Source of the DNA: Bacteroidia bacterium
Lineage (GTDB): Bacteria; Bacteroidota; Bacteroidia; Flavobacteriales; Flavobacteriaceae
Assembly (NCBI GenBank): GCA_030428705.1
Contig: JAUIDI010000005.1
Location: 1 to 64,000 of the forward strand
Length of the DNA: 64,000 bases
Direction of reading: 5' to 3'
Numbering within the stretch: position 1 is the stretch's first letter; each line of letters starts with the position of its first letter. A program made the translations under genes and the position numbers. Positions 3,307 through 12,276 of this stretch are shown here, one piece after another. Under the pieces are notes generated by a model. It was given only the letters and a program-made list of their open reading frames with translations, searched no databases and was not told the DNA's origin.

Positions 3307-6300
3307 TTATATTGTTTGCAATTTTTCTTGTTCCAGTCGAATAAGTGCCTGACGGTATTCCTCCGGGAAAACTTTTACAAAATCCGGAAGACATTTTTCC
3401 CAATTTTCAAGAATGCGTTGGGCCAGAGGGCTCATCGTATGATTATAATGACTTTCGATCAGGTCTTTAAGCTGTTTGATATCCTCTGCTTCCTGGACAG
3501 GTAAAAGGTTCAATGCCTCTTTATTACATTTTTTCTCAAAGGTCTTGTTCTTGTCATAGACGTAGGCAATACCACCGCTCATACCTGCTCCAAAATTTCT
3601 TCCCACTTCGCCCAAGATTACGGCAACACCTCCCGTCATATATTCGCAACCGTGGTCGCCGATACCTTCGACGACGGTTTTGGCTCCGGAATTACGAACA
3701 CAGAAACGCTCTCCCGCCTTACCATTGATGTAGGCCCTTCCTGCGGTCGCACCATATAGAGTCACATTGCCCGTAATTATATTTTCTTCGGGTACAATGG
3801 TCGATCCGTCAGGTACTTTTATGACCAATTTCGCTCCCGACAGTCCTTTTCCGAGGTAGTCATTGGTATTTCCATTTACGGTCAACGTCAATCCACGAGT
3901 AGCAAAAGCACCAAAGCTCTGTCCTGCGGAGCCTGTAAAATTCAACCGAAGTGTATTGATGGGTAGCCCTTGCGCACCATATACTTTTGAAATTTCGTTG
4001 CTTATAATGGCCCCGACCGCACGATCTGTATTGTGTATCGGAAAGTCTAGACTCAATTTTTCTTTTCTAAACAATGACGGATTTGCCTTGGCGATTATCT
4101 CAAACTCAATTGATTTATCGACATCGTGTTTCTGTTTTTCCGTATTGTAAAATTTGGTGCCTTTTGGCACATCGATTTGGTGCAAGATGGGAGTCAAGTC
4201 GATTCCGGCCGATTTGTAATGGTCTATGGCCTTTTTACGGTCCAATTTTTGAACCTGTCCTACCATTTCGTTAACGGTACGGAAACCTAACTGAGCCATG
4301 ATTTCACGAAGTTCTTGGGCCACGAAGTACATATAGTTGACCACATGCTCTGGCTTGCCTTCGAATTTTTTGCGCAGTTCAGGGTTTTGGGTGGCAATAC
4401 CAACAGGACAAGTGTTCAAATGACAAACACGCATCATGATGCAACCCGATGCAACTAGCGGTGCCGTAGCAAAACCGAATTCTTCGGCTCCTAAAAGACA
4501 AGCTACCGCAACATCCCGACCTGTTTTCAATTGTCCGTCACATTCCAAAACAATGCGATTTCGCAGATCGTTCATGACCAAAGTCTGCTGGGCTTCGGCA
4601 ATGCCCAATTCCCATGGTAGGCCGGCATGCTTCAATGAAGTTAATGGAGATGCTCCCGTACCACCATCCGAACCGGAGATCAGTATAACATCGGCCTTGG
4701 CTTTCGAAACCCCGGCAGCAACGGTACCTACACCCACCTCGGATACCAATTTTACATTGATTCGGGCTTTTCTATTTGCCGATTTAAGATCATAGATCAA
4801 TTGCGATAGATCTTCAATGGAATAGATATCGTGATGCGGCGGCGGCGAGATCAACCCGACATAAGGTGTTGAATTTCTAGTTTTGGCAATTGAAGGATTG
4901 ACTTTTGGGCCGGGCAATTGACCACCTTCACCGGGTTTTGCACCCTGGGCCATTTTGATCTGTATTTCTTTTGCGTTCGTCAGGTAGTTCGATGTCACCC
5001 CGAATCGCCCGGAGGCTACTTGTTTGATGGCACTGTTGCGCCAATCTCCAGTGGCATTTTTATAAAAGCGTTCTTCGTCTTCGCCACCCTCGCCCGAATT
5101 GCTCTTGCCTCCGATACGGTTCATGGCTATGGCCAAATTCTCATGAGCTTCTTTGCTGATGGACCCATACGACATGGCCCCGGTTTTGAAACGCTTCACG
5201 ATTTCCGTCCACGGTTCGACTTCATCCAAAGGAATCGGGTCATAGTTCGAAAACTCGAACAGCCCGCGAATGGTCATTAAGTTCTTCGATTGCCTATTGA
5301 CCATTTCTGCAAATTCCTTATAGGTTTCGGGTTCATTACCTCGAACGGCCTTTTGCAATTTCGCGACCGAAAGCGGATTGAACATGTGTTTTTCGCCATC
5401 ACGCCTCCAGCGGTATTCCCCGCCGATTTCCAAATCCAGATTTGCGGCGACCTCTTTTTTGGCAAATGCTTTTTGGTGCCTTTTGGAAATTTCCTTTTCA
5501 ATCTGATAAAGCCCTATACCCTGTATTCTAGTCGGAGTATTGGGGAAATATTTGTTGACCACTTTGGTATTGATGCCAATACACTCGAACAACTGCGAAC
5601 CTCGGTACGAATTGAGCGTAGAGATACCGATTTTGTTCATCACCTTTAAAATACCCTTGCCTATTGCCTTATTGTAGTTCTTAATGGCTTCTTCAAACGT
5701 GAATTCCGTGATGTCATTTTCCTCAATCTGTTCGCCAATGATCTCGTTGACGAGATACGGATTGATGGCGCTTGCGCCAAAACCGAACAACAAACAGAAG
5801 TGGTGCACTTCCCTAGGCTCGGCGGATTCAACGATGATGCTCAATTTTGAGCGTTTTCCAAGACGTTGAAGTCCACTGTTGACATAGGAACAGGCCAGCA
5901 ATGCGGGAATCGGCGCATCATCTTTATTGACATTTCTGTCGGAAAGTATGATGATATTGGCGCCTTCGTCGATGGCTTTTGAGGCTTGGTCCAAAATTGA
6001 CTCCAAGGCATCTTCCAAACCATTATGCCCTTTTTCAACTTCATAAAGAATCGGAATGGATACTACCTTGTAATCCGGACTCGAATCATAGTTCTTGATT
6101 TTATCCAAATCTTCTTTTGAAATTACTGGATTTTGTATTTTCAATTTTCTACAGTGGTATTCACTTATATTAAAAATGTTTTGATCCGTACCCAAGGTCA
6201 GACTGATATCGGTAATCATCTCTTCGCGGATACCGTCTAAAGGCGGATTTGTCACCTGTGCGAAAAGCTGCTTGAAATAATTGTATATCAACTGTGGCCG

Positions 6301-7821
6301 CTGCGATAGCACGGCGATCGGAGTATCGGAACCCATAGAACCGATCGGCTCTTTGGCATATTGGGCCATCGGTAGAATGATCGTATTGATATCTTCCAAG
6401 GTGTAGCCGAACACCGACTTTCTTTTTTCAACGGATTCCTCACCAAGAAACAGGGGACAATCGTTGTAAGGTATATCCCTGAGATGAACCAAATTTTCAT
6501 CCAGCCATTTTTTATAAGGATGCCGTGAAGCGATTTCTTCCTTGATTTCCTCGTCGTTGACGATTCGTCCCTCTTCCATGTTTACCAAGAACATTTTGCC
6601 CGGTTCCAACCGGCCGTGGAATTCGATGTTCTCAGGTGCAATATCCAATACGCCCGTTTCGGATGACATAACTACATAACCATCTTTGGTCACGGAGTAT
6701 CTAGAGGGGCGAAGACCGTTCCTGTCCAAAACTGCACCGATGTAATTGCCATCGGTAAAGGGTATGGAGGCAGGGCCGTCCCATGGTTCCATCAGGCAGG
6801 AATTGTATTCGTAAAAAGCCCTTTTGGCCTCTGACATATCAGGATTTTTTTCCCATGCCTCAGGCACCAACATCATCATTACCTCGGGAAGTGAGCGACC
6901 TGTCATCAATAAAAGCTCTACGACCATGTCCATAGTGGCGGAATCCGATTTCCCGGGCAGTATAATCGGGAGTATGTTCTTTATTTCATCACCGAACCAA
7001 CCACTTTCCAAAAGTCCCTCCCTTGATTTCATACGAGAAACATTGCCCCTTAAAGTATTGATTTCGCCATTGTGGCACATATACCGAAAGGGTTGGGCCA
7101 GATCCCAAGTAGGAAAAGTGTTGGTCGAAAAGCGCTGGTGTACCAGAGATAATCGGGTAACCACCCTAGAATCCATTAAGTCTTTGTAGTAAAGACTAAT
7201 ATCCCTGGGCATCAGGAGCCCTTTAAAAATGATAATCTTGGTTGAAAGACTGGGGACATAGAAAAAACCGCTTTCGGATAATTTGGAATTTATTATCGCA
7301 TGTTCGGTCAATTTTCTTGCTATGTACAACTTCAGGTTAAAATTGAAGTCGTCTTGTTCGTCATTTTCCTTGGTAATGAAAATTTGCTTAACAAAAGGCT
7401 CGGTTTCCATAGCAATACGGCCGGGGACCGTACGGTTGACCGGTACGTCGCGCCACCCCAGAAGTCGAAGCCCTTGCTTCTCGATATTTTCCTCGAAAAT
7501 ATTGACGCAGAACTGTCGTTGATTTTCTTTTTGGGGCATGAATATATTGCCTACCGCATAGTTACCTGCATCCGGAAGTTCAAAATTGCATACCTGATTG
7601 AAAAAATCATGGGGGATATCGATTAAGATTCCCGCTCCATCACCCGTTTTACCATCGGCACTTACCGCACCGCGATGTTCAAGTTTATCTAATATTTCCA
7701 AAGCCTTATGAATGATGTCATTAGACTTTTCGCCTTTCAGGCTACAGATAAAACCCGCTCCGCAATTGTCGTGTTCGAATTCCGGCAAATACAATCCTTG
7801 TTCCCTCAATACCATATACAA
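3307..7821 (-). CDS. gltB: Glutamate synthase, large subunit
   Basis: This 1504-aa subunit carries the glutaminase and the synthase. It starts with a short propeptide that ends before Cys20 (HDNCGAGF), the N-terminal nucleophile of the class II glutamine amidotransferase domain. A central domain, an FMN-binding (beta/alpha)8 synthase domain (GAKPGEGGQLPG region) and a C-terminal beta-helix with glycine-rich repeats follow. The 3Fe-4S ligands are Cys1127, Cys1133 and Cys1138 (C-x5-C-x4-C). A second Met two codons in is an alternative start. It is the first gene of the gltBD operon. A short hairpin (GCCCA-TTT-TGGGC at 7839-7851) lies in its probable 5' untranslated region. All key residues are present. 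Confidence 0.97.
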   Translation of the reverse strand: MYMVLREQGLYLPEFEHDNCGAGFICSLKGEKSNDIIHKALEILDKLEHRGAVSADGKTGDGAGILIDIPHDFFNQVCNFELPDAGNYAVGNIFMPQKENQRQFCVNIFEENIEKQGLRLLGWRDVPVNRTVPGRIAMETEPFVKQIFITKENDEQDDFNFNLKLYIARKLTEHAIINSKLSESGFFYVPSLSTKIIIFKGLLMPRDISLYYKDLMDSRVVTRLSLVHQRFSTNTFPTWDLAQPFRYMCHNGEINTLRGNVSRMKSREGLLESGWFGDEIKNILPIILPGKSDSATMDMVVELLLMTGRSLPEVMMMLVPEAWEKNPDMSEAKRAFYEYNSCLMEPWDGPASIPFTDGNYIGAVLDRNGLRPSRYSVTKDGYVVMSSETGVLDIAPENIEFHGRLEPGKMFLVNMEEGRIVNDEEIKEEIASRHPYKKWLDENLVHLRDIPYNDCPLFLGEESVEKRKSVFGYTLEDINTIILPMAQYAKEPIGSMGSDTPIAVLSQRPQLIYNYFKQLFAQVTNPPLDGIREEMITDISLTLGTDQNIFNISEYHCRKLKIQNPVISKEDLDKIKNYDSSPDYKVVSIPILYEVEKGHNGLEDALESILDQASKAIDEGANIIILSDRNVNKDDAPIPALLACSYVNSGLQRLGKRSKLSIIVESAEPREVHHFCLLFGFGASAINPYLVNEIIGEQIEENDITEFTFEEAIKNYNKAIGKGILKVMNKIGISTLNSYRGSQLFECIGINTKVVNKYFPNTPTRIQGIGLYQIEKEISKRHQKAFAKKEVAANLDLEIGGEYRWRRDGEKHMFNPLSVAKLQKAVRGNEPETYKEFAEMVNRQSKNLMTIRGLFEFSNYDPIPLDEVEPWTEIVKRFKTGAMSYGSISKEAHENLAIAMNRIGGKSNSGEGGEDEERFYKNATGDWRNSAIKQVASGRFGVTSNYLTNAKEIQIKMAQGAKPGEGGQLPGPKVNPSIAKTRNSTPYVGLISPPPHHDIYSIEDLSQLIYDLKSANRKARINVKLVSEVGVGTVAAGVSKAKADVILISGSDGGTGASPLTSLKHAGLPWELGIAEAQQTLVMNDLRNRIVLECDGQLKTGRDVAVACLLGAEEFGFATAPLVASGCIMMRVCHLNTCPVGIATQNPELRKKFEGKPEHVVNYMYFVAQELREIMAQLGFRTVNEMVGQVQKLDRKKAIDHYKSAGIDLTPILHQIDVPKGTKFYNTEKQKHDVDKSIEFEIIAKANPSLFRKEKLSLDFPIHNTDRAVGAIISNEISKVYGAQGLPINTLRLNFTGSAGQSFGAFATRGLTLTVNGNTNDYLGKGLSGAKLVIKVPDGSTIVPEENIITGNVTLYGATAGRAYINGKAGERFCVRNSGAKTVVEGIGDHGCEYMTGGVAVILGEVGRNFGAGMSGGIAYVYDKNKTFEKKCNKEALNLLPVQEAEDIKQLKDLIESHYNHTMSPLAQRILENWEKCLPDFVKVFPEEYRQALIRLEQEKLQTI

Positions 7822-8179: not shown

Positions 8180-9322
8180 TCAATCCCTTAAAATACTTCT
8201 CGAAATAACGATTTTTTGAATCTCCGAGGTTCCCTCATAGATTTGGGTAATCTTGGCATCGCGCATCAGTCGCTCGACGTGATAATCTTTTACGTATCCA
8301 TTTCCACCGTGGATTTGAACTGCTTCAATTGTCGTTTCCATAGCTACCTGCGATGCATAAAGCTTGGCCATCGCCCCTGAAAGGTCATAGTTCGAGCCAT
8401 TGTCTTTATCCCACGCGGCCTTATAGACCAAATGTCGGGCCGCCTCTATTTGGGTATGCATATCGGCCAGTTTAAAGGCTATGGCTTGATGATTGGCGAT
8501 TTCAGTGCCGAACGCCTTTCTTTCTTTCGCGTATTTTTTGGCCAGTTCATAGGCTCCGGCCGCAATTCCCAAAGCTTGGGCGGCAATACCGATGCGCCCA
8601 CCGGCCAAGGTTTTCATTGCAAATTTGAATCCAAAACCATCCTCTCCGATCCGGTTTTCCTTGGGTACTTTTACATCGTTGAAATTCAGTGAGTGCGTAT
8701 CGCTGCCGCGAATGCCTAATTTGTCCTCCTTAGGACCTATTTCAAAACCTTCCATTCCCTTTTCCACGATTAGCGCATTGATGCCTTTATGGCCTTTCTC
8801 CTTGTCCGTCTGGGCAATAACAAGATATATTTCGGCCGTACTACCATTGGTTATCCAGTTTTTTGTACCGTTCAAAATATAATGGTCGCCCATATCGACA
8901 GCGGTGGTTCTTTGTGAAGTGGCATCGCTGCCTGCTTCGGGCTCCGATAAACAAAAGGCACCGATAACCTCCCCGGTTGCCAAACGGGTCAGATACTTCT
9001 TTTTCTGTACTTCATTTCCAAAGGTTTCCAATCCCCAGCATACCAATGAATTATTGACCGAAACTACGACCGAAGCCGAGGCGTCGATCTTGGATAGCTC
9101 TTCCATTACCAACACGTATGAAATTGTATCCAATCCGCTTCCGCCATATTCTGGATCCACCATCATTCCCAAAAAACCGAGCTCCCCCATTTTTTTTATC
9201 TGCTCCTTGGGAAAACGCTGGGCATTATCCCTTTCTATTACTTCTGGAAGCAATTCGCTTTGGGCGAAATCCCTTGCGGCTTGTTGGATCATTAATTGTT
9301 CTTCGGAAAGTGTAAAATCCAT
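8180..9322 (-). CDS. Acyl-CoA dehydrogenase (short/branched-chain type)
   Basis: This 380-aa flavoenzyme oxidises an acyl-CoA to the trans-2-enoyl-CoA and passes electrons to ETF. The usual three-part fold is complete: N-terminal helices (1-120), a middle beta domain with AFCLSEPEAGSDA near 130-142 and WITNG for FAD, and C-terminal helices with the QIHGGNGY motif. The catalytic base is Glu363 in QIYEGTSEIQ, the position used by short-chain and medium-chain enzymes. The length is typical. It stands alone with no beta-oxidation neighbours, so the chain-length preference is open. A TATATTTG box lies about 30 bp upstream of the start. Confidence 0.93.
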   Translation of the reverse strand: MDFTLSEEQLMIQQAARDFAQSELLPEVIERDNAQRFPKEQIKKMGELGFLGMMVDPEYGGSGLDTISYVLVMEELSKIDASASVVVSVNNSLVCWGLETFGNEVQKKKYLTRLATGEVIGAFCLSEPEAGSDATSQRTTAVDMGDHYILNGTKNWITNGSTAEIYLVIAQTDKEKGHKGINALIVEKGMEGFEIGPKEDKLGIRGSDTHSLNFNDVKVPKENRIGEDGFGFKFAMKTLAGGRIGIAAQALGIAAGAYELAKKYAKERKAFGTEIANHQAIAFKLADMHTQIEAARHLVYKAAWDKDNGSNYDLSGAMAKLYASQVAMETTIEAVQIHGGNGYVKDYHVERLMRDAKITQIYEGTSEIQKIVISRSILRD

Positions 9323-9350
9323 AGTATTACGGAATTGGTAAATGACAGTG

Positions 9351-9358
9351 CAAATATA
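9351..9358 (-). promoter_or_regulatory. Probable -7 box of the acyl-CoA dehydrogenase gene
   Basis: On the minus strand this reads TATATTTG, an exact match to the Bacteroidota -7 consensus TAnnTTTG, about 28 bp before the ATG at 9322. No clear TTTG lies 19-21 bp further up, so only the -7 element is supported. Confidence 0.45.
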
Positions 9359-9457
9359 AGGGTATGTTTGAAAATTCGGGAGAATATCTAATCCGCTTTT
9401 AAGAATAATTCAAAGGATTTTGCTTTTTCGGATATCGATTAAACAATGCCAAATTTT

Positions 9458-9465
9458 TATATTTG
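9458..9465 (+). promoter_or_regulatory. Probable -7 box of the glutamate dehydrogenase gene
   Basis: TATATTTG matches the Bacteroidota -7 consensus exactly. With a start point about seven bases later, the transcript would carry a leader of about 135 nt before the ATG at 9608, and that leader contains the structured region described separately. A good -33 TTTG is not visible. Confidence 0.5.
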
Positions 9466-9469
9466 TTCG

Positions 9470-9607
9470 CCAAGCTTTAGGGTAATTGATTTAATATAAA
9501 AATTATGAGACAGCATTAACCCCGCAAGGGGGATGAAAATCAACAATCAAGACTTGCTAAATCGCCCATGGGGGCGAATAATCCATAATTTTAAATAAAT
9601 CAATAAG
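9470..9607 (+). promoter_or_regulatory. Structured leader with two tiny reading frames ahead of glutamate dehydrogenase
   Basis: The leader contains four elements in tight succession. First is a five-codon frame ATG-AGA-CAG-CAT-TAA at 9505-9519 (M-R-Q-H-stop). Directly after its stop comes a hairpin CCCC-GCAA-GGGG (9520-9531) with a GNRA-type loop. A 21-codon frame at 9533-9598 then starts one base past that hairpin. Inside it is a second hairpin, CGCCC-ATGG-GGGCG (9563-9576). The 21-codon frame stops nine bases before the dehydrogenase ATG. The order suggests control by translation of the leader or a structured RNA element. No known riboswitch was recognised and the regulatory role is inferred. 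Confidence 0.45.
9533..9598 (+). CDS. Possible 21-aa leader peptide
   Basis: ATG at 9533 opens 21 codons ending with TAA at 9596-9598. The peptide is basic and contains the stretch NRPWGRIIHNFK. It resembles no family known to me. It ends nine bases before the ATG of the glutamate dehydrogenase and its ATG sits one base past a GC-rich hairpin, so a cis-acting leader is more likely than a separate functional peptide. It may also be chance in a structured RNA. Confidence 0.25.
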   Translation: MKINNQDLLNRPWGRIIHNFK

Positions 9608-10840
9608 ATGAAGGAGTTACTTAAGATATATGAGGACAAACAGCCTGAAATCGTTTTCAATTGGAAAGATCCCGAAACCGAGGCAGAAGGTTGGGCGGTT
9701 ATAAATTCGCTGAGGGGCGGGGCGGCAGGCGGTGGTACCCGAATGCGAGAAGGCCTTGATATGAACGAAGTGCTTTCGTTGGCCAAGACCATGGAGGTGA
9801 AATTTACCGTGTCCGGGCCACCGATAGGCGGAGCCAAATCGGGCATCAACTTCAATCCCAACGATCCACGAAAAAAAGGGGTTTTAGAAAGGTGGTACAA
9901 TGCCGTCGCACCCTTGTTGAAAAGTTATTATGGTACCGGGGGCGATTTAAATGTCGATGAGATCCATGAGGTCATTCCCATAACAGAAGATGCCGGGGTG
10001 TGGCATCCGCAAGAAGGTGTCTTCAATGGACACTTCAAACCGACCGAAGCCGATAAGATCAACAGGATTGGACAACTTCGATTGGGTGTTATCAAGGCAT
10101 TGGAAAGCAAGAAGTACTCGCCCGATATTTCAAGAAAATATAGAGTGGCCGATATGATTACCGGCTACGGTGTCGCCGAAGCGGTACGACATTACTACGA
10201 TATTTTTGGTGGAAATGTTATGGGGAAAAGGGCCGTCGTACAGGGTTTCGGCAATGTAGGTGGTGCAGCGGCCTTTTATTTGGCACAAATGGGTGCCAAG
10301 GTCGTGGGTATCATCGATCGCGCCGGGGGTGTCATTAAGGAAGAAGGTTTTTCTTTTGAGGAAATACAATCGTTCTTTCTCAATAAAAAAGGAAATAACC
10401 TGATGGCCGATCCCGACCTGATGATTCCTTTCGAGGAAATCAATGAGCGAATTTGGACGCTTCCCACAGAAATATTCCTGCCTTGCGCAGCTTCTCGGCT
10501 TATTACCAAAGAACAGATCGCCAAAATGATCGATACGGGACTCGAGGTCGTTTCTTGTGGTGCCAATGTACCCTTTGCCGATAAGGAAATTTTCTTTGGT
10601 CCAATCATGGAATATACGGACGGACGGGTAAGCCTCATTCCCGATTTTATTTCAAATTGTGGAATGGCCCGGGTTTTTGCCTATTTTATGGAAAAAAGGG
10701 TGGGGATTGATGATAATTTAATATTTAATGACACTTCCGATACGATTAGAAAAGCAATTTTAAATATCTTTAGCCAGAATCCCTCGAAAACCAATTTGAG
10801 CAGAACCGGATTTGAAATTGCACTGAAACAACTGATTTAA
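9608..10840 (+). CDS. Glu/Leu/Phe/Val family dehydrogenase (probably glutamate dehydrogenase)
   Basis: This 410-aa enzyme reversibly deaminates an amino acid, most likely glutamate to 2-oxoglutarate, with NAD(P). The N-terminal dimerisation and substrate domain has GPPIGGAKSG at about 71-80 with the conserved Lys, and the GTGGDLNVDE segment that holds the catalytic Asp. The C-terminal Rossmann domain has QGFGNVGG at about 212-219. The length matches the family. With gltBD 1.8 kb away, the region encodes both routes linking ammonium and glutamate. Use of another amino acid (Leu or Val) cannot be excluded from sequence alone. It is probably controlled through its unusual leader. Confidence 0.88.
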   Translation: MKELLKIYEDKQPEIVFNWKDPETEAEGWAVINSLRGGAAGGGTRMREGLDMNEVLSLAKTMEVKFTVSGPPIGGAKSGINFNPNDPRKKGVLERWYNAVAPLLKSYYGTGGDLNVDEIHEVIPITEDAGVWHPQEGVFNGHFKPTEADKINRIGQLRLGVIKALESKKYSPDISRKYRVADMITGYGVAEAVRHYYDIFGGNVMGKRAVVQGFGNVGGAAAFYLAQMGAKVVGIIDRAGGVIKEEGFSFEEIQSFFLNKKGNNLMADPDLMIPFEEINERIWTLPTEIFLPCAASRLITKEQIAKMIDTGLEVVSCGANVPFADKEIFFGPIMEYTDGRVSLIPDFISNCGMARVFAYFMEKRVGIDDNLIFNDTSDTIRKAILNIFSQNPSKTNLSRTGFEIALKQLI

Positions 10841-10902: not shown

Positions 10903-12276
10903 ATGGAAACCATCATTGTCATTGTATTTGTTGTGGGTTATCTCGCAATAACCATGGAGCATAACCTGAAAATCGATAAGCTGATTCCAGCTTTGGCCAT
11001 GATGGCTATTTTGTGGGCAATTATTGCATTGGCCCATATGCCGGTATTCGAGGTCAATGCCGACCTTAAAGAATTGGAGCCAAGCCATTTGGATGAAATG
11101 CTATTGCATCATCTGGGTAAGACGGCCGAGATTCTCGTCTTTTTGTTGGGGGCAATGACAATAGTGGAAATCATTGACTATTTTGACGGTTTCGCCACGA
11201 TCAAAGGTTTCATACGAACGAAGAGCAAGCGTAGACTTTTATGGCTTTTTTCAATATTGGCATTTATTCTTTCGGCCATAATAGATAATTTGACCGCAAC
11301 TATCGTACTTGTCACGATTTTACAAAAGGTGATCAGTGATAGAAATACCCGGCTTTGGTTTGCAGGGATGATTATTATTGCGGCCAACGCAGGGGGGGCA
11401 TGGTCGCCCATAGGCGATGTTACAACGACGATGCTATGGATCGGCAATAAGGTGACCGCATTACAATTGATAGAACATGTACTGCTGCCCTCGATTGTTT
11501 GTATGGTCGTACCCGTGTTGGTTGCGAGCCGGTACAAGGCTTTTAAGGGTAATATCGAAAGTGATATGGATTCTTTGGACGAGCCGAAATCGAGATTCGG
11601 GGCGACAATGTTGTACTTGGGCCTGGGCGCCATAGTGTTCGTGCCGATATTCAAGACGATTACGCATTTGCCGCCGTATGTAGGCATGATGCTTTCATTG
11701 GCTGTTGTGGCGACCTTTGCCGAGATTTATAGTAATTCGAAGTTCACGATTTCCGATGCGGTCGATGTTCCCGGTGAGAGCGATTCGCATGGTCACCATA
11801 GTCCGGTTCATGCCTCGCTTTCAAAAATTGAACTGCCCAGTATTCTATTTTTCTTAGGGATATTGATGGCGGTTGCAGCTATGGAATCTTTGGGATTGCT
11901 TTTCCATTTTGCCGAAAGTCTGGATCGAACTATGCCTATGTTAGGGACTGAATCGATCGGGGAACATGTATCGGATCTAGTAGTCTTGATATTGGGTGTT
12001 GGATCTGCGGTTATTGACAATGTGCCCTTGGTCGCGGCCAGTATGGGGATGTTCTCTGTGCCGATCGATGATCCGGTTTGGCATTTTATTGCCTATTCGG
12101 CCGGAACAGGTGGCAGTATGTTGATAATAGGCTCGGCGGCGGGAGTCGTAGCCATGGGCATGGAAAAAATAGACTTCTTTTGGTATCTAAAGAAAATTGC
12201 CTGGTTGGCGTTCCTCGGATTTATTGGTGGAGCGGTTGCTTTTATATTAATGCGAAATTTAGTGTTGAACGCATAA
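10903..12276 (+). CDS. nhaD: Na+/H+ antiporter, NhaD family
   Basis: This 457-aa inner-membrane protein is built almost entirely of hydrophobic helices, of the type that exchanges internal Na+ for external H+. NhaD-type hallmarks are the SAIIDNLTATIV segment near residues 125-137, the GGAWSPIGDVTTTMLW segment, and the second IDNVPLVAASMGM half-site in the C-terminal half, which together reflect the internal repeat of the ion transporter superfamily. It lies 62 bp after the dehydrogenase gene and 50 bp before exbB on the same strand, so it may be cotranscribed with either. A Na+ extrusion role would fit a marine host. Confidence 0.92.
   Translation: METIIVIVFVVGYLAITMEHNLKIDKLIPALAMMAILWAIIALAHMPVFEVNADLKELEPSHLDEMLLHHLGKTAEILVFLLGAMTIVEIIDYFDGFATIKGFIRTKSKRRLLWLFSILAFILSAIIDNLTATIVLVTILQKVISDRNTRLWFAGMIIIAANAGGAWSPIGDVTTTMLWIGNKVTALQLIEHVLLPSIVCMVVPVLVASRYKAFKGNIESDMDSLDEPKSRFGATMLYLGLGAIVFVPIFKTITHLPPYVGMMLSLAVVATFAEIYSNSKFTISDAVDVPGESDSHGHHSPVHASLSKIELPSILFFLGILMAVAAMESLGLLFHFAESLDRTMPMLGTESIGEHVSDLVVLILGVGSAVIDNVPLVAASMGMFSVPIDDPVWHFIAYSAGTGGSMLIIGSAAGVVAMGMEKIDFFWYLKKIAWLAFLGFIGGAVAFILMRNLVLNA

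Follow-up and report, generated by a model that had tools for sequence, protein, structure and literature searches.

The stretch of DNA analysed here (64,000 nt; hereafter, the window) carries on its forward strand, at 9608-10840, a gene for a 410-residue dehydrogenase of the Glu/Leu/Phe/Val type. The protein matched PF00208 and PF02812 above cut-off, no NCBIfam model scored above cut-off, and the best PDB matches in a sequence search were glutamate dehydrogenases; judging from these domain and PDB matches, the gene most likely encodes a glutamate dehydrogenase (GDH). A gene for an NhaD-type Na+/H+ antiporter (10903-12276) begins 62 nt past GDH on the same strand and is possibly co-transcribed with it, so that the leader described below may act on both. 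The large subunit of glutamate synthase is encoded near GDH on the opposite strand (3307-7821), with an acyl-CoA dehydrogenase-like gene (8180-9322) between the two.

A promoter box, TATATTTG (9458-9465, forward strand), was read from the window sequence as a match to TAnnTTTG, which we take to be the Bacteroidetes consensus for the -7 box, and the transcript is predicted to start downstream of it at about 9472. The leader that follows contains, on the same strand, a four-codon mini-ORF, ATG AGA CAG CAT TAA (M-R-Q-H-stop, 9505-9519); a CCCC-GCAA-GGGG hairpin (9520-9531) that begins at the first base past the stop; a 21-codon frame whose ATG lies at 9533 and whose stop ends at 9598; a second GC-rich hairpin, TCGCCC-ATGG-GGGCGA (9562-9577), seen both in the fold and in the alignment; and a nine-base gap (9599-9607) that separates the 21-codon frame from the GDH ATG at 9608. 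All of these had been described in a first-pass annotation of the sequence, and we found each where it had been placed. That description had missed a long-range stem closing the leader. Its outer part pairs 9485-9493 with 9596-9604, which lies 4-12 nt 5' of the GDH ATG. Its inner part pairs 9499-9507, containing the ATG of the mini-ORF, with 9584-9592 (CATAATTTT), 16-24 nt 5' of the GDH ATG in the ribosome-loading region.

We compared this leader with those of related GDH genes. A first set comprised the best 80 GDH loci of 572 confirmed relatives together with the window (81 leaders). For a wider, non-random sample, to which six loci (L143-L148) were added because the model already matched them, 216 Flavobacteriaceae leaders were collapsed to 196 unique ones, 20 being identical to another over the last 120 nt. 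Another 72 were short or boxless and were set aside, leaving 124 long leaders, defined by a TAnnTTTG box at least 62 nt 5' of GDH. The spot test applied to these asked for a four-codon ATG frame 28-58 nt past the box and left the inner codons and the base after the stop free. Structural analyses used a set of 104 leaders chosen for ATG, CAR, stop and C, which consists of 96 leaders found by the spot test without requiring CAR or C, six long leaders in which MNQL or MTQL falls slightly outside the allowed spacing, and two MNQL leaders without a box at the right distance. We further used a covariance model (R1), an alignment fitted to the R1 structure and hence leaning toward structure (A2), and a GDH tree of 120 proteins, 80 with the frame, built by a quick method under a single-matrix model.

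The mini-ORF, seen in the window sequence, recurred across Flavobacteriaceae GDH leaders. ATG NNN CAR CRN stop was present in 61 of the 81 leaders of the first set (best 80 of 572 plus the window), and two more carried MNQL-stop. Among the 124 long unique Flavobacteriaceae leaders, 96 had a four-codon ATG frame at the spot; all 96 had Gln at codon 3 and all 96 had C immediately after the stop (9520 in the window), neither of which was required by the search. The family consensus in GDH leaders is ATG NNN CAR NNN followed by TAA, TAG or TGA, and TAG was used in 52 of the 96 frames, TAA in 41 and TGA in 3. The encoded peptides were MRQH (47), MDQQ (14), MNQL (10), MRQQ (6), MTQL (6), MTQQ (4) and seven rarer forms. 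Codon 2 was varied (R, D, N, T, K, W, A), as was codon 4 (H, Q, L, R, C), and Gln was the sole invariant residue besides Met; a second Gln, at codon 4, occurred only in MDQQ, MRQQ and MTQQ (24/96). The distance from the end of the box to the frame was 28-42 nt in 88 of the 96 (36-40 nt in 65, 28-31 nt in 15). Spot-test failures numbered 28 of 124, including the six MNQL or MTQL leaders just outside the spacing window, and the sole other four-codon match at the spot was a nested frame with internal stops (L223).

Mapped on the GDH tree, the presence of the frame changes at least nine times. Neither the first two bases of the Gln codon nor the C after the stop needed any change. The first, second and third bases of codon 2 required at least 4, 8 and 14 changes and those of codon 4 at least 1, 4 and 22; in the flanks the minimum was 13-36 at each of the sixteen positions 3' of the C, and 10-35 at positions -16 to -2. 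Gln position 3 changed 19 times, always between A and G, a purine-only variation that could equally stem from an RNA motif. The constancy of start and stop in this set is no evidence, because ATG and an in-frame stop were in the definition, and for the same reason nothing follows from stop positions 2 and 3, whose 15 changes all preserve a stop. However, no copy with nine of the ten key positions (start, CAR, stop and C) was found among the 22 long frameless leaders, and therefore the frame seems to be either whole or absent, its start or stop not having been worn away alone. Eight of the ten key positions were present in two of the 22 (L073 and L169; 0.8 expected from shuffles). In both L073, from Mesoflavibacter zeaxanthinifaciens, and L169 the frame opens with MNQL, has no stop at codon 5 and continues for several codons more; it is probably an L-type variant or relic. 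When set against the close L123, L126 (G258:C21) is a decayed copy that has lost the start, Gln and stop codons, while the promoter box stays.

The C after the stop was kept in 29 of 74 A2 rows in which pairing with its hairpin partner is impossible, and therefore pairing alone does not explain it. All 30 R1 matches among loci L084-L113 had an intact frame, which adds little because R1 was built from intact copies. A study of Flavobacterium johnsoniae reports that adenines at -3, -6, -12 and -13 promote initiation and that extra AUGs near starts are avoided (PMC6847099). Among the 104 leaders, position -3 of the mini-ORF was A in 73% and position -12 in 75%, compared with 37% and 54% at the GDH start; A at -6 (56%) or -13 (32%) was nothing special. 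Taken together, the comparison supports constraint on the Gln codon, the C, the start and the stop; the mini-ORF looks translated, and we infer that it is probably translated in cells.

Folding of 9465-9640 closed the whole leader by the two helices of the long-range stem, with a minimum free energy of -36.6 kcal/mol. From the single sequence this fold was only mildly unusual (z -2.05; 10 of 200 shuffles as good). Nevertheless, the pairing of the mini-ORF start region with the stretch preceding the GDH start was conserved. We swapped arms between leaders in an alignment-free test that bears on the inner helix. Own arms paired at -10.67 kcal/mol versus -7.88 for swapped arms in the H/Q type (n = 78, z -11.4), and at -7.19 versus -5.66 kcal/mol in the L type (n = 25, z -4.8); in either type, 0 of 5000 permutations, which ignore the relatedness of the leaders, was as good. 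Single leaders were often unremarkable, with an own-arm median rank of 0.19 (H/Q) and 0.28 (L) within type and 0.13 against unlike leaders. Compared with dinucleotide shuffles, which likewise ignore relatedness, the 3' arm gave a mean z of -1.8, and 44% of the 104 leaders were below -2.

The alignment pointed the same way in most respects. In A2, which is fitted to the structure, 75.6% of cells were paired versus 36.8-50.1% after sliding by 1-3 columns, and the covariation score was 0.234 versus 0.135 for shuffled alignments. The number of pairs changed on both sides (16) was not above shuffles (14.9; 160/500), whereas the other four measures were. The outer helix (helix 1 of A2) had changes on both sides in 6 of 7 pairs with 74% of cells paired, and the inner helix (helix 2) in 7 of 12 pairs with 76% of cells paired. 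The arms also differed jointly by lineage, with GAC/GTC in MRQH leaders, GATC/GATC in MDQQ leaders and ACAC/GTGT in the Zobellia MTQQ leader L022. The comparison thus supports pairing of the two arms with co-variation. The first-pass annotation had judged the order of leader features unlikely to arise by chance, an argument that held for the mini-ORF (96/124) and extends to the closing stem (0/5000), but not for the 21-codon frame; it had also named an absence of conserved stems and mini-frames in relatives as what would speak against its proposal, and we found the mini-ORF and the closing stem to be conserved.

The remaining features of the leader were less uniform. The hairpin right after the stop (helix 3 of A2), another element noted at the outset, had a counterpart in 48 of the 104 leaders, with 1.2 expected from shuffles. 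By type it was present in 24 of 47 MRQH, 11 of 14 MDQQ, 5 of 6 MRQQ and all 4 MTQQ leaders; the 24 leaders with MNQL or MTQL all lacked it. The 21-codon frame was not conserved: an ATG frame of at least 10 codons occurred there in 19 of the 104 leaders, the window included, with scattered ends. On visual inspection of the alignment, only the same-genus relatives L004 and L005 had a look-alike of the second GC-rich hairpin. Both had been counted as parts of the element; their positions were correct, but we dropped them as functional parts, and the 21-codon frame is probably incidental. Re-initiation or translational coupling, which had also been suggested, is disfavoured because 70-129 nt separate the start of the mini-ORF from that of GDH and the three relative frames are about equal (37, 34 and 33 of 104); in-frame fusion or coupling of the mini-ORF to GDH was rejected on the same even distribution of frames. 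Readthrough of a weak stop was likewise rejected, the frame past the stop being hardly more open than the others (medians of 12, 9 and 10 codons by frame). A simple consensus scan of the window sequence found no terminator-like site in 9330-9640.

By sequence comparison, a four-codon Gln mini-ORF before GDH is kept by many marine flavobacteria, and the conserved leader element is real in its core. Carriers among the best 80 of 572 (62/80) include loci of Maribacter, Zobellia, Arenibacter, Cellulophaga, Eudoraea, Muriicola, Euzebyella, Robiginitalea, Olleya and Aquimarina; the 18 without the frame were from Mesonia, Salinimicrobium, Zeaxanthinibacter, Kordia, Leptobacterium and Mesoflavibacter, plus two other Flavobacteriaceae loci. 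In the window's genome, the GDH leader was the sole R1 match up to E 10. The model was tuned to H/Q-type leaders and its filters were strict; the leaders it missed include, for instance, those of G049 and G070 (both MNQL). Of 397 Flavobacteriaceae genomes, 43 (28 of 237 genera) had an R1 match, each at a single place. Among the matches listed, 40 of the 43 places end at the GDH start, and in the remaining three (G162, G218, G322) the leader runs into the GDH start. Flavobacterium GDH leaders were without the element. Beyond the family, none of 19 GDH leaders taken from elsewhere in the order (20 were retrieved, one of which belonged to Flavobacteriaceae) and none of 28 from elsewhere in the class (28 of 44 matches) had a four-codon frame starting with ATG and carrying Gln as its third codon; in those 28 the box, if found, lay 13-66 nt 5' of GDH. 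GDH therefore does not need the element. The simplest history would be that the longer leader was gained within Flavobacteriaceae and lost several times, the change counts on the tree being directionless.

A pattern of TTTG-gap-ATG-NNN-CAR-NNN-TAR-C gave 5 forward and 0 reverse matches in the window's genome (control, 2 and 3), and the four matches other than the GDH leader, two of them overlapping, were inside larger reading frames on either strand. With any codon 3 allowed, 120 genomes of the family gave 111 matches versus 103 in the reversed control. Gln at codon 3 was identified by eye in 21 of the 111; 20 of these lay before GDH (10 genomes checked directly, 10 by coordinates or leaders) and one, in G107, elsewhere. 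A general class of four-codon leaders was therefore rejected, no wider class being apparent from these counts. The match in G107 (L305, G107:C15) has a box and MRQN-stop then C before a small lipoprotein-like gene and is probably due to chance. Two long family leaders that lack the mini-ORF, L203 and L217, share an inverted stretch, GTATCAT ... ATGATAC, which may be a different GDH regulatory element.

We propose that the leader is a translational switch run by the ribosome on the four-codon ORF, through which GDH output would track glutamine supply, a reading we favour by a narrow margin over doubt. With no ribosome present, the start region of the mini-ORF would pair with the sequence before the GDH start and hide that start. 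A ribosome on the mini-ORF would cover the 5' arm, the stem would open and GDH would be translated. When charged Gln-tRNA is scarce, the ribosome would wait at the invariant Gln codon, and the invariant C past the stop would slow release and lengthen its stay, so that a shortage of glutamine would raise GDH output. That the GDH start is hidden, that glutamine is the signal and that the response has this direction are our inferences. The first-pass annotation had envisaged a structured RNA that senses nitrogen state; what emerges is a conserved cis-regulatory element whose mini-frame looks translated, and for which a tie to nitrogen state is plausible.

The opening step was modelled by placing a ribosome footprint on the mini-ORF: the GDH start region, unpaired with a mean probability of 0.37 without it, reached 0.50 (control mask, 0.41). 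Openness rose by more than 0.1 in 61 of the 104 leaders and fell by as much in none, compared with a rise in 13 of 104 under the control mask. The gain was near nil in some leaders (0.61 to 0.64 in L202; 0.20 to 0.23 in L022), and openness in L022 was 0.16 with the footprint shifted to the Gln-stalled place. This computed opening leads us to expect more GDH translation while a ribosome stays on the mini-ORF, and the simplest candidate for what holds it there is the Gln codon. Because the window's genome has a glutaminyl-tRNA synthetase above cut-off and no GatB match, charging of Gln-tRNA should report free glutamine, which is a usual nitrogen signal. That the gene behind the leader is GDH also fits such a signal. 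Classical amino-acid leaders use runs of the sensed codon, and a single Gln codon would be a thin sensor, which is a point against glutamine sensing. As for the stop, C is commonly regarded as the weakest stop context in bacteria. The base after the stop is reported to influence termination in E. coli (PMC5373646), and work on readthrough describes UGA-C as a weaker terminator (PMC9841425). Slower release at such a C is known only from other organisms, a further point against the proposal. That a single Gln codon and an enforced weak stop make up a minimal amino-acid sensor, gating GDH translation via one long-range stem, is a reading we put forward tentatively, as falling somewhat short of an even chance.

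Several other explanations were weighed against this switch. The mildness of the single-sequence fold (z -2.05) and the lack of conservation of the 21-codon frame and second hairpin would suit chance features of an AT-rich gap, but the recurrence of the mini-ORF in 96 of 124 long leaders makes this hardly credible for the leader as a whole; chance is refuted by the comparison for the mini-ORF and the closing stem and stands for the 21-codon frame. Equally far-fetched is an operator in the DNA to which a nitrogen regulator would bind: the two arms do make an inverted repeat, yet the spacing from mini-ORF to GDH varies (70-129 nt), the arms change jointly between lineages, and there would be no reason for an operator to preserve a reading frame. 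A non-coding structured RNA, such as a riboswitch or protein-binding site, would turn the apparent ORF into an RNA motif, AUGnnnCARnnnURRC, and it would account for a closing stem with changes on both sides, for the strong sequence conservation and for the purine-only Gln position 3, which suits a motif as well as a codon. We nevertheless consider it improbable, given that all three stop codons are in use (a stop having been in the definition), that no long leader had just one key position broken (0/22), that the decayed L126 lost start, Gln codon and stop together, and that Rfam gave no match.

The other two readings keep a ribosome on the mini-ORF. It might be a constitutive ribosome-loading or standby device, in which frequent initiation would keep the stem open and set a fixed GDH level with no metabolite involved. 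The good start context at -3 and -12 and the in silico opening of the GDH start region (61/104) fit such a device, which would leave the invariant Gln codon and the invariant C unexplained, and we think it unlikely. Alternatively, the tetrapeptide might be a minimal arrest peptide. TnaC responds to tryptophan in the ribosome; by the same principle fMet-x-Gln-x-tRNA at the weak stop would sense a small molecule inside the ribosome, with glutamine, glutamate or 2-oxoglutarate as candidate ligands, and the paused ribosome would open the stem. The position of Gln two codons 5' of a stop that is always followed by C (96 frames) is what one would expect of such a peptide, but codons 2 and 4 vary widely and four residues barely reach the exit tunnel, which leaves us doubtful of it.

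If the glutamine-responsive switch is correct, one bacterial family would possess a nitrogen sensor based on translation. With just four codons, one of which must be Gln, and a weak stop context that is likewise obligatory, the ORF would illustrate how little the ribosome requires for reading an amino acid. Flavobacteria are abundant in the sea, soil and fresh water, and to our knowledge little is known of how they set their nitrogen enzymes. The GDH leader offers a concrete candidate RNA in a phylum that starts its genes without Shine-Dalgarno sites.

No known riboswitch had been recognised in the leader at the outset, which the covariance-model search bore out. Rfam 15 models, among them the Flavo-1 motif, matched only two tRNAs and a 5S rRNA in the whole window at gathering score. 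Relaxing the threshold to E 10 over 9400-9660 gave five matches, the best being CRISPR-DR10 (E 0.12; 18.1 bits, with a gathering score of 39), which we took as chance. We found no description of this GDH leader in the literature (open-licence articles). The conserved leader element with its four-codon Gln ORF therefore looks undescribed, while ribosome-operated leader ORFs as such are already known. Because it has no Rfam match, no run of a sensed codon and no terminator-like site, we did not assign the leader to a named family.

Among known systems, erm-type translation attenuators work through a stalled ribosome on a leader ORF that refolds the RNA and exposes the main start. The proposed GDH switch is similar in that a ribosome on the leader ORF would free the main start; erm attenuators, which we likened to it by description, have longer, drug-dependent arrest peptides. 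In trp/his-type attenuators, the ribosome reads amino-acid supply at leader codons, as is proposed for the GDH leader. Unlike them, the GDH leader has one regulatory codon and not a run, and the window sequence is without a terminator-like site in 9330-9640. Within the phylum, leader peptides have been suggested in Flavobacterium psychrophilum (PMC9723704), an article whose main text contains neither gdh nor glutamate dehydrogenase as a term. The two-codon leader ORF mg2 of axe-txe is described as a minigene that raises downstream translation in cis (PMC8708949), and the passages on mg2 in that article mention neither a conserved amino acid nor a long-range stem of the kind seen here. The uORF toiL of topAI-yjhQ in Escherichia coli works like the proposed GDH switch: ribosomes stalled in it are reported to relieve a structure proposed to hide the downstream start (PMC12121999), and the GDH leader would likewise combine a short upstream ORF, a start-hiding structure and relief by a ribosome in the ORF. 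Unlike toiL, which responds to ribosome-targeting antibiotics, the GDH leader has an ORF of four codons, keeps Gln and the post-stop C invariant, precedes a gene of nitrogen metabolism, and sits in a phylum whose mRNAs are described as being without Shine-Dalgarno sequences (PMC6847099).
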